From assembly GCA_003167495.1 (NCBI GenBank), contig PMSX01000245.1:368-64367 (forward strand): 64,000 nucleotides of DNA. Reading direction: 5' to 3'. Numbering within the stretch: position 1 is the stretch's first letter; every line of letters begins with the position of its first letter. This document shows positions 4,628 to 19,867 of the stretch, piece after piece. Source of the DNA: Bryobacterales bacterium. Lineage in GTDB: Bacteria > Acidobacteriota > Terriglobia > Bryobacterales > Bryobacteraceae. The translations under genes and the position numbers were made by a program. The notes beneath the pieces are model-generated. The model was not told where the DNA came from and ran no database searches. It saw only the letters and a list, made by a program, of their open reading frames with translations.

Positions 4628-5265
4628 GCCGGTCCTTGGAAGGCCGGATGCCAGGCAAGACAACGCCGCTCAAGAACCGCCGTGGAAACATCGGCAAGCT
4701 TTCCGAGCAACGCATAGATGATGATTCCGACAACAATAATGTCGGTTTGCAGGAATTCGCGAGCTGCGCTGAGCCCGTACACGCGGCCCATTTCTATCAG
4801 TCCGGGATCCACGGTTCGAATGCCGTGATAGGTGTTCAGGTAGATAGGGAAGAAAACACCGAGTCCCACTAAGAATAACTTCGAGCCTTCGTCGATGCCG
4901 AACCACAGAATACAAAGCGGAATGAGTGCCAGTTGCGGTATGTTCCTGATCATCTGAAGAGTGCTGTTTAGCTGGCGAGCAGAAACGGAAGATAAGCCAT
5001 TCAACAGACCAAAGACGAAACCCACAGAGCCACCCGCGACAAATCCTGCAGCCGCTCGTGCGGTGCTGACGGCAATGTGCCGGAAAATCTCGCCGGACCG
5101 AATCAGCTTTACGGCGGCCTCTAAAACCTGCGTAGGAGCGGGCAGAATGCGAGTGGACATGAAGCCCAGTTGCGACAAGATTTGCCAAACGGCCAGGATC
5201 AAACCGGGGACCACCCACGGGAGCGCTTGGCGAACATAACGATTTTGACCAGTTAAGAGAGCCAC
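4624..5265 (-). CDS. ssuC: Sulfonate-type ABC permease with an internal deletion
   Basis: The 213-residue protein aligns to the SsuC family from TRILPAPTQVLEAA through LFLVGLGVFFPIYLNTYHGI to the C-terminal YALLGKLADVSTAVLERR. Family members are near 260 residues. The sequence jumps from RVYGLS directly to AREFLQTD, omitting about 50 residues that normally contain the EAA coupling loop (the LPGALPSI region) and a membrane span. The loss is in frame, so translation continues. Without the EAA loop it should not couple to the ATPase, so the transporter is probably inactive unless the gap is an assembly artefact. It is the first gene of the operon, with a strong promoter about 55 bases upstream. 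Confidence 0.85.
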   Translation of the reverse strand: MALLTGQNRYVRQALPWVVPGLILAVWQILSQLGFMSTRILPAPTQVLEAAVKLIRSGEIFRHIAVSTARAAAGFVAGGSVGFVFGLLNGLSSVSARQLNSTLQMIRNIPQLALIPLCILWFGIDEGSKLFLVGLGVFFPIYLNTYHGIRTVDPGLIEMGRVYGLSAAREFLQTDIIVVGIIIYALLGKLADVSTAVLERRCLAWHPAFQGPA

Positions 5266-5306
5266 TGTGGGACGCCGGGACGTCGTTTTTGATAGCGCTA
5301 GGATAG

Positions 5307-5351
5307 CCCTATAACTGATAGATTATAGGGTGTTTGTCGTGGAATTGTCAA
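5307..5351 (-). promoter_or_regulatory. Sigma-70 promoter with overlapping palindromic operator for the ssu operon
   Basis: On the minus strand TTGACA (5346-5351) and TATAAT (5322-5327) are separated by 18 bases, a near-consensus promoter. A perfect 8-bp inverted repeat, CCCTATAA and TTATAGGG with an 8-base spacer (5307-5330), covers the -10 box. A repressor bound there would block polymerase, as expected for sulfur-starvation control. The regulator is not encoded here. Confidence 0.75.
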
Positions 5352-5449
5352 CCTATCGAGATTTTCCACAGATTGCATGACAGTGACCACCCTTCGCGTA
5401 TGCGTAACGCGGCGATTGGATTCGTTAACGAATACCACGTATTAACTTA

Positions 5450-16576: not shown

Positions 16577-17874
16577 GAAGTGCCATCGTATTTCTTGTTT
16601 GTGCTCTTGGGATGAGCGCTGCCGCAGCGGATTCCGTTCTGATTCGCAATGTAACGGTGCATCCGATAACAGTGCCTGAAATTCAGAACGCCGCCGTTTT
16701 GGTGATTGACGGGAAGATTGCAGATATTGGCCCTCACCTGTCAGCCCACCAGGGAGCGCATGTCATAGATGGCCGCGGATTGCATCTCTACCCCGGCTTG
16801 ATCAACGCGGCGACCAACGTAGGGTTGGCCGAGATCGGAGCCCTACGCGACACAGTCGACCTGGATGAAATTGGCACTTTCAATCCGGAGCTGCGCGCTG
16901 AAATCGCGTTCAATCCTTCGAGTGAGCACGTGGAAGTGACCCGTGCTTCCGGCATTACCAGCGTAATTACGCTGCCCGGCAGCGGCGCTCGTGGAGAGCG
17001 TTCCGGCGGCGGATCGATTATTACCGGGCAAGGTGCTCTGATGCATCTAGACGGTTGGACTTGGGAGGAGATGGCCGTGAAACGCGGCGCGGTGTTGGAA
17101 ATGGTGTTTCCACAAGTACAATCAGGCCTGCCGCGCCAGTTGGCGGCACTCACCGACACCCCGCAAGGTTCCTTTGAGGAGCAGGAAAAGCAGTATAAAG
17201 AACGTTTGCAGCGCATCAGTGACTTTTTTGAAGAGGCGCGCAAATATCGCCAAGCCAAACAGGCGGGCGGCGCGGACTTCCGGCCCGATTTGCGTCTGGA
17301 GGCCATGCTGCCCGTTATTGACGGCAAGCAGCCAATCTTTGTTCGCGCTGAACGGGAGCGGATGATCAAAGATGCGATCGCCTTTGCCGACAAAGAGAAA
17401 GTCAAAATCATTATTGCTGATCCGCGCGAAATCGGCAGCGTGGGCCCTATGCTCAAACAGCGGCACATTCCCGTGGTATTGGGTAAGACGTTGGAGTTGC
17501 CGCTGCATGAGGACGACGCCTATGATGCTCCCTACACTTTGCCTGCCGAATTCTTTAAGGCAGGTGTGAAGATTTGCTTTGGAACGTTTGATGTGGAGTT
17601 TGCGCGGAACGTGCCTTTTGAAGCCGCCCAGGCAGTGGCGTTCGGTTTGCCGCACGACGAAGCGCTTAAGGCGCTCACTATTAACAGTGCGGAGATTATG
17701 GGAGCCGGCGAATTGCTAGGATCGATCGAAAAAGGAAAGTGGGCCGACTTGATTCTGACAGACGGCGATCCGATGGAAGCGAAGACGAATATAAAGCAGA
17801 TGTTTATCGCAGGGCGCGAGGTTTCCCTGGAATCGCGGCACACGCGGGAGTATGAGAAGTGGATGAAGCGGTAA
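16573..17874 (+). CDS. Amidohydrolase-like protein lacking the metal-binding HxH (third of three)
   Basis: The 433-residue exported paralogue has a signal peptide ending near SAAAADS, the beta-sandwich (GRGLHLYPGLINAAT) and the C-terminal signature LTINSAEIMGAGELLGSIEK followed by GKWADLILTDGDP. The HxH site is replaced by A79-A80-T81 and no other ligand set is evident, so catalytic activity is doubtful. It begins with an ATGA overlap to the middle gene. With the first paralogue it flanks the single competent enzyme, suggesting a hetero-oligomer or a carbohydrate/peptide-binding role. The alternative is a different active-site chemistry. Confidence 0.82.
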   Translation: MRSAIVFLVCALGMSAAAADSVLIRNVTVHPITVPEIQNAAVLVIDGKIADIGPHLSAHQGAHVIDGRGLHLYPGLINAATNVGLAEIGALRDTVDLDEIGTFNPELRAEIAFNPSSEHVEVTRASGITSVITLPGSGARGERSGGGSIITGQGALMHLDGWTWEEMAVKRGAVLEMVFPQVQSGLPRQLAALTDTPQGSFEEQEKQYKERLQRISDFFEEARKYRQAKQAGGADFRPDLRLEAMLPVIDGKQPIFVRAERERMIKDAIAFADKEKVKIIIADPREIGSVGPMLKQRHIPVVLGKTLELPLHEDDAYDAPYTLPAEFFKAGVKICFGTFDVEFARNVPFEAAQAVAFGLPHDEALKALTINSAEIMGAGELLGSIEKGKWADLILTDGDPMEAKTNIKQMFIAGREVSLESRHTREYEKWMKR

Positions 17875-17889
17875 AGGCTGGTTGCATCA

Positions 17890-17914
17890 CCGACCCGCTG
17901 CGCGAAGGTATAAT
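17890..17914 (+). promoter_or_regulatory. Promoter placed for a leaderless mRNA
   Basis: TATAAT (17909-17914) ends 6 bases before the ATG at 17921, so transcription would begin at or next to the start codon. No -35 at 17 bases and no Shine-Dalgarno are visible. Confidence 0.55.
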
Positions 17915-17920
17915 TCATCC

Positions 17921-18178
17921 ATGGCTACCACGAGCTATCTTGACCGCTTGCTGGAACCGCTAACCGAGGCATTCACGCCAAAGATGGCCTCAGCTCTCCT
18001 AGAACTCCGCGCCGACTCGGAACTGGAGGCCCACATCGGCGAGTTACGCCGGAAAGCGAATGACGGAACCCTCACTCCAGCGGAGGATGCGGAGTACAAG
18101 GATTTCGCGGAGGCCGTCGATCTGATCTCAATCATGCAAGCAAAGGCCCGCCGTTTCCTCGCCAAGCAATCCGCCTAG
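17921..18178 (+). CDS. Small helical protein paired with an HNH nuclease
   Basis: This 85-residue, charged, all-helical protein contains ELRRKANDGTLTPAEDAEYK and ends in an amphipathic helix with IMQAKARRFL. The same pattern recurs in the frameshifted minus-strand ORF at 18450-18726. It is followed after one base by an HNH endonuclease reading frame (now broken), a gene order suggesting an operon of partner proteins. A role as modulator or antitoxin-like partner of the nuclease is inference. ATG 17921 is chosen from the leaderless promoter and matching N-terminus; a longer ORF start has no support. Confidence 0.65.
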   Translation: MATTSYLDRLLEPLTEAFTPKMASALLELRADSELEAHIGELRRKANDGTLTPAEDAEYKDFAEAVDLISIMQAKARRFLAKQSA

Positions 18179-18179
18179 C

Positions 18180-18449
18180 ATGGACCAAAATCTCCGGGAT
18201 GCTGTTCGAAGGCGTGCCGGCAACGCATCTGAGTATTGCCGAATGCCGCAGCAGCGACGCCGCTGATTGCTTTCCATGTCGAGCATATCGTTTCGAAGCA
18301 GCACGGAGGCACCGACGATCCCGGCGGACTCGCGCTTGCGTGTGACCGCTGCAACGCGTACAAAGGACCGAATCTTACGAGCATTGATCCCGAGACACGA
18401 GAGTCGCAAAGCCCTGCTGCGTGGGGACGGACCGCGTTCGCGAGATCGT
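18180..18449 (+). pseudogene. HNH endonuclease, frameshifted
   Basis: The first frame gives MDQNLRDAVRRRAGNASEYC and soon a stop. A shifted frame continues ATPLIAFHVEHIVSKQHGG, then DDPGGLALACDRCNAYKGPN and LTSIDPETRE, which is the HNH zinc-finger nuclease core (the second CxxC and the HVEHI...N motif). One cysteine pair is reduced: EYC is followed by RMPQ rather than a second Cys, as in related family members. After about 18385 similarity fades. At least two disruptions are present, so this is a pseudogene. It would have been a DNA nuclease. Confidence 0.72.
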
Positions 18450-18726
18450 TCACCCCAGGTGCTGCAGCGCTTGTCGGGCTTTTGACTGCCACAAGGCCAG
18501 CAAATCACCGTTGATGTACGCTTCCAACTCCGCCTCTTCACCCTCGGTCAGCGCCCCCCTCATTGGCTCTGGCGCTCAACTCCGCAATACGCTCAGCATC
18601 ATGATCGGGAAAATCCAGCGCGAGAATGCCTTCCGCGAGCGGCCGAGTCAATCCGCGTCCGGCTAGGTCGAACTCTCTTCGCAATACTTCCGCATGAGCC
18701 GCGGATCGAGAATCGGTCTGAACCAT
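18450..18726 (-). pseudogene. Second small helical protein, frameshifted at a G6 tract
   Basis: The minus strand reads MVQTDSRSAAHAEVLRREFD and later AERIAELSARANEG. At a run of six G the frame breaks; the other frame continues ALTEGEEAELEAYINGDLLA then LWQSKARQALQHLG and a stop. The pattern AN(E/D)GxLTxxE...QxKAR is shared with the gene at 17921, so the two are homologous and converge on the HNH remnant. Confidence 0.65.
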
Positions 18727-18801
18727 CCTTGTTTTGGTTTACGCTGGTGCAGTTCATCAGTGGCACTTGACCTAGTTCTCTTCCTAGATCACAATGCAGT
18801 T

Positions 18802-19040
18802 GTGAAGCGAGTCAACATCCGCGACGCAAAAACCAATCTGTCTCGCTATCTAACCGAACTTATGCCAGCGATGTTTTGCTGCTTTGCAACCGCGATGAGC
18901 CGGTGGCTGAACTCCGATCGCTTCGCAAAAAGGGAGCCCATAAGCCCCGGATCGGCGCGGCGAAGGGCAAGTTCGTAATTCCCGATTCGTTTTTCGAGCG
19001 TTTGCCAGACGAGATTCTGAAAGCCTTCAGTGGCAAGTGA
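18802..19040 (+). pseudogene. Phd/YefM-type antitoxin, frameshifted
   Basis: From GTG 18802 the frame reads VKRVNIRDAKTNLSRYLTEL, the DNA-binding start of a Phd/YefM antitoxin. One missing base near 18868 shifts it; the other frame continues DVLLLCNRDEPVAELRSLRK and ends ERLPDEILKAFSGK. Restored length would be 79 residues, normal for the family. No PIN or RelE toxin follows, so the module has lost its partner. Confidence 0.75.
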
Positions 19041-19102
19041 CGGATTCCTCTCGGCCAATCTCGACGTTAGCAATTACCGCCTTCCCTTTGATCTTGATCC
19101 GC

Positions 19103-19867
19103 TCACGGCCGATTCCAAAAAAACCACCCAGTCATCACCACCCCCACCACAATCACTAACCTCCGAATCACCTCCGAACTCACTCTCCGCGCCAGGATAG
19201 GCCCCACATACCCTCCCGCAATCGAGGCTCCCATCATCACCAGGGTCGGCTTCCAGGCCACCTGCCGGTTCACAATAAAAATCAATGCAGCCAATGCGTT
19301 CAGCGTCCCTGCCAAAATCGTTTTAATGCCGTTCATCCCGTGAATATCCGTCATCCCATACAGCCGCAGCGCTGCCAAAAACATAATCCCGATGCCACCC
19401 CCGAAATACCCTCCATATACCGCAATCGGAAACATCAGAATCAACATCAGCCACCCGCCCCCTTGCAGCCGCCCGCGCATTGCTGCGCTCACTTGATTCC
19501 CAAACGCAAACAGCAGCGTGGCAAACAGCAACAGCCATGGCGCAATTTGCCGGAACGTCCTGTCCGATGTCACCAGCAGCAATCCCGCACCAATTGCGCC
19601 ACCCAGCAAACTCACCACTAGCCACAGCTTCAAATGCCTCTCGCCCAGCTTCTGCACATCGCCGCGATACACAAAGATACTGGCCATGGAGCCCGGCACC
19701 AACGCCACCGTACTCGAAGCATTCGCCATCACCGGCCCCACGCCGCTAAATACCAGCGACGGGAAAGTCAAAAAACTCCCGCCTCCCGCCACCGAATTAA
19801 TCGCGCCCGCCGCAAAAGCCGCCGCTACCAACAGCAAAAGTGTCACCATGCGTCTTTTCAGTTTCAT
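19103..19867 (-). CDS. TauE/SafE (TSUP) family membrane permease
   Basis: About 254 residues with eight predicted membrane spans. The two-fold family motifs are visible: AGAINSVAGGGSFLTFPSLV in the first half and YGGYFGGGIGIMFLA in the second. TSUP proteins export sulfite, sulfonates or other small organic anions. The start at 19867 (MKLKRR) precedes the first hydrophobic segment and avoids overlap with the divergent peptidase gene; longer upstream starts run into that gene. No sulfur gene is adjacent here, though a sulfonate operon lies 14 kb away. Substrate unknown. Confidence 0.87.
   Translation of the reverse strand: MKLKRRMVTLLLLVAAAFAAGAINSVAGGGSFLTFPSLVFSGVGPVMANASSTVALVPGSMASIFVYRGDVQKLGERHLKLWLVVSLLGGAIGAGLLLVTSDRTFRQIAPWLLLFATLLFAFGNQVSAAMRGRLQGGGWLMLILMFPIAVYGGYFGGGIGIMFLAALRLYGMTDIHGMNGIKTILAGTLNALAALIFIVNRQVAWKPTLVMMGASIAGGYVGPILARRVSSEVIRRLVIVVGVVMTGWFFWNRP

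Follow-up and report, generated by a model that had tools for sequence, protein, structure and literature searches.

Type II toxin-antitoxin (TA) systems, such as VapBC, ParDE, MazEF and CcdAB, are small two-gene units in which the antitoxin gene comes first and the genes touch or overlap; they are often plasmid-borne, occur in many copies per genome and leave solitary antitoxins, which commonly, but not universally, carry a DNA-binding domain. In the colicin and pyocin DNases, an HNH nuclease is silenced by a helical immunity protein of ∼85–90 residues (ColE7/Im7, ColE9/Im9). Here we analyze a gene pair that resembles both, found in 64 000 nucleotides of a Bryobacterales genome (Acidobacteriota; GenBank assembly GCA_003167495.1, contig PMSX01000245.1, positions 368 to 64 367 of the forward strand; this whole stretch is hereinafter the window): a gene for a short helical protein (the small gene) directly followed by a gene for an HNH nuclease (the HNH gene). 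Comparison of the sequences of the many relatives of this pair makes it probable that it is a TA-like module that combines a putative HNH DNase toxin with a small helical putative antitoxin.

The module shares with type II systems all the organizational features listed above but differs from them in having an HNH-type nuclease and a partner from an unnamed family, whose 85-amino acid forms have no recognized DNA-binding domain. The likeness to the colicin and pyocin DNases lies in an HNH nuclease paired with a helical protein of similar size that is predicted to neutralize it, whereas the module lacks secretion and receptor domains and has the partner gene first; no sequence relation was noticed, no search having been aimed at one. 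PtuB, the Septu and retron-Ec78 effector, has the same HNH core layout and is among the best, though weak, PADLOC, NCBIfam and Foldseek matches, but its score of 16.4 bits is far from the cut-off of 150 and the shared unit of the module consists of two genes without an ATPase gene, so that membership in Septu (PtuAB) was rejected. Among curated profiles, NCBIfam IscB scores highest against the HNH protein, at 41.9 bits, far under the cut-off of 175; the HNH part alone matches (positions 182–237 of 314) in a protein of ∼130 residues that has no RuvC part, and an RNA-guided function was likewise rejected.

No description of the pair was found in the literature searched, which left most subscription journals and all preprints beyond its reach. 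The available passages of PMC2701414, PMC3482391, PMC13092281, PMC10440598 and PMC9416677 contain none, and 'HNH' was not found in the accessible portion of the main text of the 2009 survey of type II systems (PMC2701414). We judge the HNH module to be new as a variant of TA-like systems.

Conserved pairing and co-divergence of the two genes

The window's own family is represented by 237 genomes in the searched set, and profile searches detected the HNH family in 80 of these (E 1e-11) and the small protein in 89 (E 1e-05); small-gene relatives from named sources come mostly from metagenome-assembled genomes of Bryobacterales, Bryobacteraceae and Candidatus Sulfopaludibacter. From fetched DNA, 37 loci were classified (31 from the first 61 genomes and 6 from the source genome), 110 further places were taken from the HNH matches listed, and the final set, with one double count (a second fragment, L072) removed, comprises 149 HNH modules in 79 genomes. 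All module counts for the family are among the HNH matches listed, so that there are at least 149 modules, and small-protein counts are among the 150 matches listed. An HNH gene was considered intact when a single open frame spans profile positions 10–108 of 120. Because the set was recovered by the HNH gene, the small gene did not decide entry.

The pairing and the gene order are well established in the family. In the 91 modules with an intact HNH gene, the small gene is intact by profile in 87, full-length but divergent in two (L211 and L077), cut by a contig start in L140 and broken in L060; with L140 and L134 (one of the 87, also truncated by a contig start) excluded, 88 of the 89 assessable intact HNH genes are directly preceded by a full-length small ORF. 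Conversely, all 14 loci recovered with the small protein have an HNH gene or its remnant directly downstream. The HNH start nearest to the stop of the small gene lies at −14 to +5 nt from it (5th–95th percentile, 86 pairs), the choice of the nearest start favoring small gaps. The family thus presents the compact two-gene unit with conserved pairing that is characteristic of type II systems.

The two proteins also co-diverge. The distance matrices of the HNH and small proteins correlate with a Mantel r of 0.80 (87 intact pairs), compared with a maximum of 0.09 in 2000 permutations. Modules that share a genome are no less divergent than others (median HNH distance of 0.57 for 45 pairs, versus 0.53 overall), and hence the co-divergence reflects more than the species tree.

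The pair extends to plasmids and to other phyla. The HNH protein matches 34 plasmid records, all named cyanobacterial, and a cyanobacterial HNH query adds two weak plasmid matches, from Pantoea and Vibrio. The small protein of the window, used as a query, gave no plasmid match; a cyanobacterial small protein matches 18 plasmid records and lies directly upstream of an HNH match in 17 of these (the exception is NZ_CP040273.1). The nuclease/partner system suggested by a preliminary description of the window, made from the sequence alone, is supported by these counts in the family and on plasmids alike. In eight plasmid regions chosen by hand among the 34 records, a small ORF is upstream in each (profile E 3e-06 or better), and seven have partition, TA or cas1/cas2 genes within 5 kb, a count that has no control and in which two plasmids come from one strain. 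In plasmid pSYLB of Synechocystis sp. PCC 6714 (L098, ∼4992–5366), the HNH gene is unannotated and the small gene annotated, with cas1/cas2 just upstream. Two members belong to Planctomycetota (L009 and L014). In the 247 genomes searched for the wider phylum, the small protein was detected in 8 (E 0.001) and near-full-length HNH members in ten, the source genome being counted in both; some HNH proteins outside the family clearly belong to other subgroups.

The nuclease gene is usually the first to decay

Decay of the module is strongly lopsided. Among the 54 modules with a broken HNH gene, the small gene is intact by profile in 40, partial in 5, absent in 7 and cut in 2; four further modules are cut at the HNH gene itself. 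A start codon is present in 37 of the 40 (near the expected position in 35), the other three (L070, L224 and L079) being excluded from the intact count. Discordant modules therefore number 37 with a broken HNH gene and an intact small gene, against one with the opposite combination (L060). If first breaks were proportional to gene length, at most one of 38 would fall in the small gene with P of 1e-07. The modules are not all independent; when each 80%-identity cluster is represented by a single module (114 clusters from 150 modules, the double count still included), the counts become ∼27–29 against 1, for which the P of 1e-05 for 1 of 28 is taken as a proxy. Sequencing and assembly errors would strike both genes by length, so the skew suggests that losses in which the small gene goes first are purged, as predicted for a TA pair. 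As in type II systems, the putative antitoxin gene is not lost ahead of the putative toxin gene, by the same 37 to 1.

The mechanism that we propose is that the first gene yields a short helical protein that would bind the HNH DNase encoded by the second, perhaps jointly translated, gene and silence it directly; were the small protein lost or diluted, the freed nuclease would be toxic through damage to the DNA of the cell, its presumed target. Since the freed nuclease would harm the cell, the small gene could not go first and would be retained through the protection that it affords. The module, of ∼640–850 bp, would spread bare among unrelated sites and onto plasmids, and its final stage, exemplified by the window, would be a small gene left alone once the nuclease has gone.

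Protein families, predicted structure and a possible role in defence

The HNH protein belongs to the HNH endonuclease superfamily, as indicated by a Pfam HNH score above the gathering threshold for the window core and by the metal-site and active-site residues of the relatives: C17, H36, C55, C58, N59 and K62 are invariant in 20 HNH relatives and C20 is present in at least 90%. Beyond this core, there are weak matches to McrA, Cap5, PtuB, IscB and the HNH domains of compact Cas9.

The small protein matches no family above the cut-off. Its profile shares a 28-residue stretch with YnzC/UPF0291 (E 1.6e-04), but membership in that family (DUF896) is not supported: 5 of 29 members match at E ≤0.5, the best at 0.0052, and one score is 14.6 bits against 24.2. 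Structure comparisons gave only common helical arrangements (Z under 7). The cyanobacterial and a few acidobacterial small proteins carry an extra N-terminal segment that, by eye, resembles ribbon-helix-helix antitoxins. Six cyanobacterial small proteins scanned gave no match to a ribbon-helix-helix family, the N-terminal extension of L077 matches RHH_5 below the cut-off (E 0.01; 16 bits, with 26 required), and an N-terminal segment of 41 residues from one plasmid small protein, sought on other antitoxins, occurs in six records only, all within small genes already found. An AlphaFold model of an in-frame pair (L008), read through its TAA, has pLDDT of 84 and pTM of 0.48, with a helical small protein (pLDDT 87–97 over residues 11–80) and an HNH domain.

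The weak resemblance of the HNH domain to PtuB of Septu, to McrA and to Cap5 of CBASS, together with the location of two of the eight plasmid copies next to cas1/cas2, would fit a two-subunit defence or restriction nuclease, in which the HNH enzyme is aimed at invading DNA by the small protein, acting as a specificity or activating subunit. We consider such a role unlikely. Loss of a subunit that only activates or aims the nuclease would be harmless, so that decay in accordance with gene length would be expected rather than 1 against 37, and the restriction of the shared unit to two genes in the 13 module pairs described next also counts against a defence nuclease.

Apparent movement between sites

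Similar modules occur as bare units at different sites. Among the 53 pairs of modules that are ≥80% identical in DNA, 48 show homology neither in the upstream flanks (150–700 bp) nor in the downstream flanks (120–700 bp); some flanks were shortened by contig ends, and the comparison covered like flanks and not opposite ones. The 48 include a pair from the source genome (C194 and C230, 90% identical). When 14 pairs were inspected, homology in 13 begins 0–76 bp ahead of the small gene (twice at a contig start) and ends no more than 55 bp past the HNH stop, and the shared unit consists of the two genes only, with no recombinase inside; the remaining pair (L195/L197) is orthologous and homologous along its whole length. 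Homology being confined to two genes at differing sites, the module seems to travel bare, without a recombinase of its own. For one of the 13 pairs (L139/L152), the sites have some relation to each other, as 578 bp lying downstream of one module can be matched (72%) to sequence upstream of the other. Neither terminal repeats nor a common target were recognized at the module ends (10 clusters, by eye).

Two further loci show rearrangements: in L152, ∼20 bp past the module (oriented positions 1692–1835), the initial 145 bp of a similar module are present again as a partial tandem copy, and in L208 (genome G400) the HNH gene is interrupted at oriented positions ∼1168–1801 by an insert of ∼630 bp with no protein recognizable by eye.

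A bare unit of ∼650 bp at differing sites, frequent decay of the nuclease gene and the lack of an internal recombinase are also what a free-standing, homing-type selfish nuclease would leave, with spread via cutting and copying and the small partner restraining or timing the enzyme. Classical homing, however, requires shared flanks at the target, and the 48 of 53 pairs have none in the stretches tested; nor is the longer survival of the small gene an expectation of homing alone. Viral contigs, in short-pattern scans and within the limits of the patterns, yielded a single locus with the HNH query and no locus with the small-protein query, which also speaks against homing and leaves a phage origin, considered separately, unsupported; phage records gave 7 weak HNH matches. 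Homing therefore appears even less likely than a role in defence. A mixed mechanism, in which the HNH nuclease makes breaks that capture the sub-kilobase, recombinase-free module while the small protein protects the host, so that addiction and self-propagation would be one and the same, is conceivable but doubtful.

Evidence against the toxin-antitoxin interpretation

Several observations weigh against a TA-like module. Independent use of the small protein could also preserve the small gene. In one module with an intact HNH gene (L060), only the last third of the small gene is in frame, and the two other small-gene copies of that genome (G014) are both incomplete by profile. Three small genes next to broken HNH genes (L070, L224 and L079) have an open frame with the start codon not in place, and, of the 91 HNH proteins counted as intact, 20 depart from a strict metal-site pattern, several through loss of a cysteine. 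No DNA-binding domain was found in the 85-amino acid small protein, so that autoregulation is not evident. The structure of the complex, prediction of which had been proposed as a check, could be modeled for its two parts but not for their relative placement, which is not confident at a pTM of 0.48, so that no interface can be claimed from the fused model.

The proposed conservation of the pair across genomes holds in the family and on plasmids but weakens elsewhere. At the 19 HNH places fetched from the phylum outside the family, the small protein is matched at E <0.001 in 10, weakly (0.0016–0.22) in 5 and not at all in 4, and 37 of the 150 small-protein matches listed have no listed HNH match within 700 bp, some of them being at contig ends (one HNH entry in this comparison, G058:C424, came from a separate earlier search). 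These solitary small genes and the 28-residue YnzC/UPF0291 match could indicate retention of the small gene for an unrelated benefit, with the HNH gene as dispensable baggage, but this is highly improbable given the patchy presence of the small protein (89 of 237 family genomes) and its co-divergence with the HNH protein.

The window locus

The window copy is a relic. The features of the locus are as follows.

17909–17914, plus strand: −10-like box TATAAT, 6 nt ahead of the start codon
17921–18178, plus strand: small gene 1, intact, 85 amino acids (ATG at 17921, stop at 18176–18178), predicted helical, antitoxin-like partner; profile match
18180–18266, plus strand: N-terminal part of HNH gene 1 (ATG at 18180), up to a frame-breaking stop; SEYC replaces CEYC
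18254–18403, plus strand: core of HNH gene 1 (HVEH...CDRCN) in another frame, profile positions 23–74 of 120; Pfam HNH match; 3' third absent
18404–18405, no strand: approximate tail-to-tail junction of the two HNH remnants, placed where the frames cease to resemble HNH proteins; probable deletion
18406–18453, minus strand: HNH gene 2 stub of ∼16 codons, whose GTG start overlaps the small gene 2 stop (ORF 18175–18492, minus); resembles subfamily HNH N-termini by eye and is too short for a profile match
18450–18726, minus strand (start at 18726): small gene 2, of a second subfamily, with a frameshift at ∼18553–18560; profile match in two pieces
18804–19037, plus strand: two open pieces that may be remains of a type II antitoxin gene; weak

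The layout read from the bare sequence, with an intact small gene followed after one base by a frameshifted HNH gene and a convergent, frameshifted homolog of the small gene, proved accurate. HNH gene 1 is broken in three ways, by the early stop at 18264–18266 with a change of frame, by SEYC in place of CEYC and by loss of the last third; the continuation in the other frame still scores against Pfam HNH (PF01844) at E 3.2e-07, with 30.8 bits against a cut-off of 21.4. The profile of relatives recovers both small genes in the source genome, the second in two pieces (E 2.9e-06 and 0.0015), so that the likeness between the two is beyond chance. Most likely, the locus once held two complete modules facing each other, from which a deletion removed the functional portions of the two nucleases but neither small gene; the second small gene would then have decayed further. 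The source genome (9.4 Mb in 396 contigs) holds six modules (C102, which is that of the window, C194, C230, C243, C241 and C131), and only C194 has an intact HNH frame.

The suggestion that small gene 1 has its own promoter is partly supported: the TATAAT box is kept in all seven modules of the window's cluster, 6 nt from the ATG in six and 8 nt in one, but a generic sigma-70 scan does not list it. The spacing of only 6 nt suggests that the transcript may be leaderless. A consistently spaced −10 box is not general, being seen only in the window's cluster among the clusters compared.

DNA matches to the locus are present in 19 of 40 relatives (the source genome counted). The amidohydrolase and TauE genes that flank 17874–19103 are on one contig in the source genome only and in no relative with matches; thus, the window junction is observed in this genome alone, and an empty site for the module could not be defined. 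In the 10 relatives whose locus contains the upstream gene, the matches end where this gene ends. The two pieces at 18804–19037, joined by XXX, match NCBIfam VapB weakly (E 0.04; 14.5 bits, the cut-off being 60) and may be Phd/VapB-like; if this relic is real, it and the two small genes make three leftover partner genes lying side by side.

Implications

A count of which gene is broken first offers a simple test of TA logic that needs no assay and could be used on other gene pairs. The apparent spread of bare units poses a testable question, namely, by what means modules of this size move if they encode no recombinase. If the proposed TA-like nature of the module is correct, HNH DNases would enter the intracellular TA repertoire, and an unnamed antitoxin family would be present in Acidobacteriota, Planctomycetota and Cyanobacteria.
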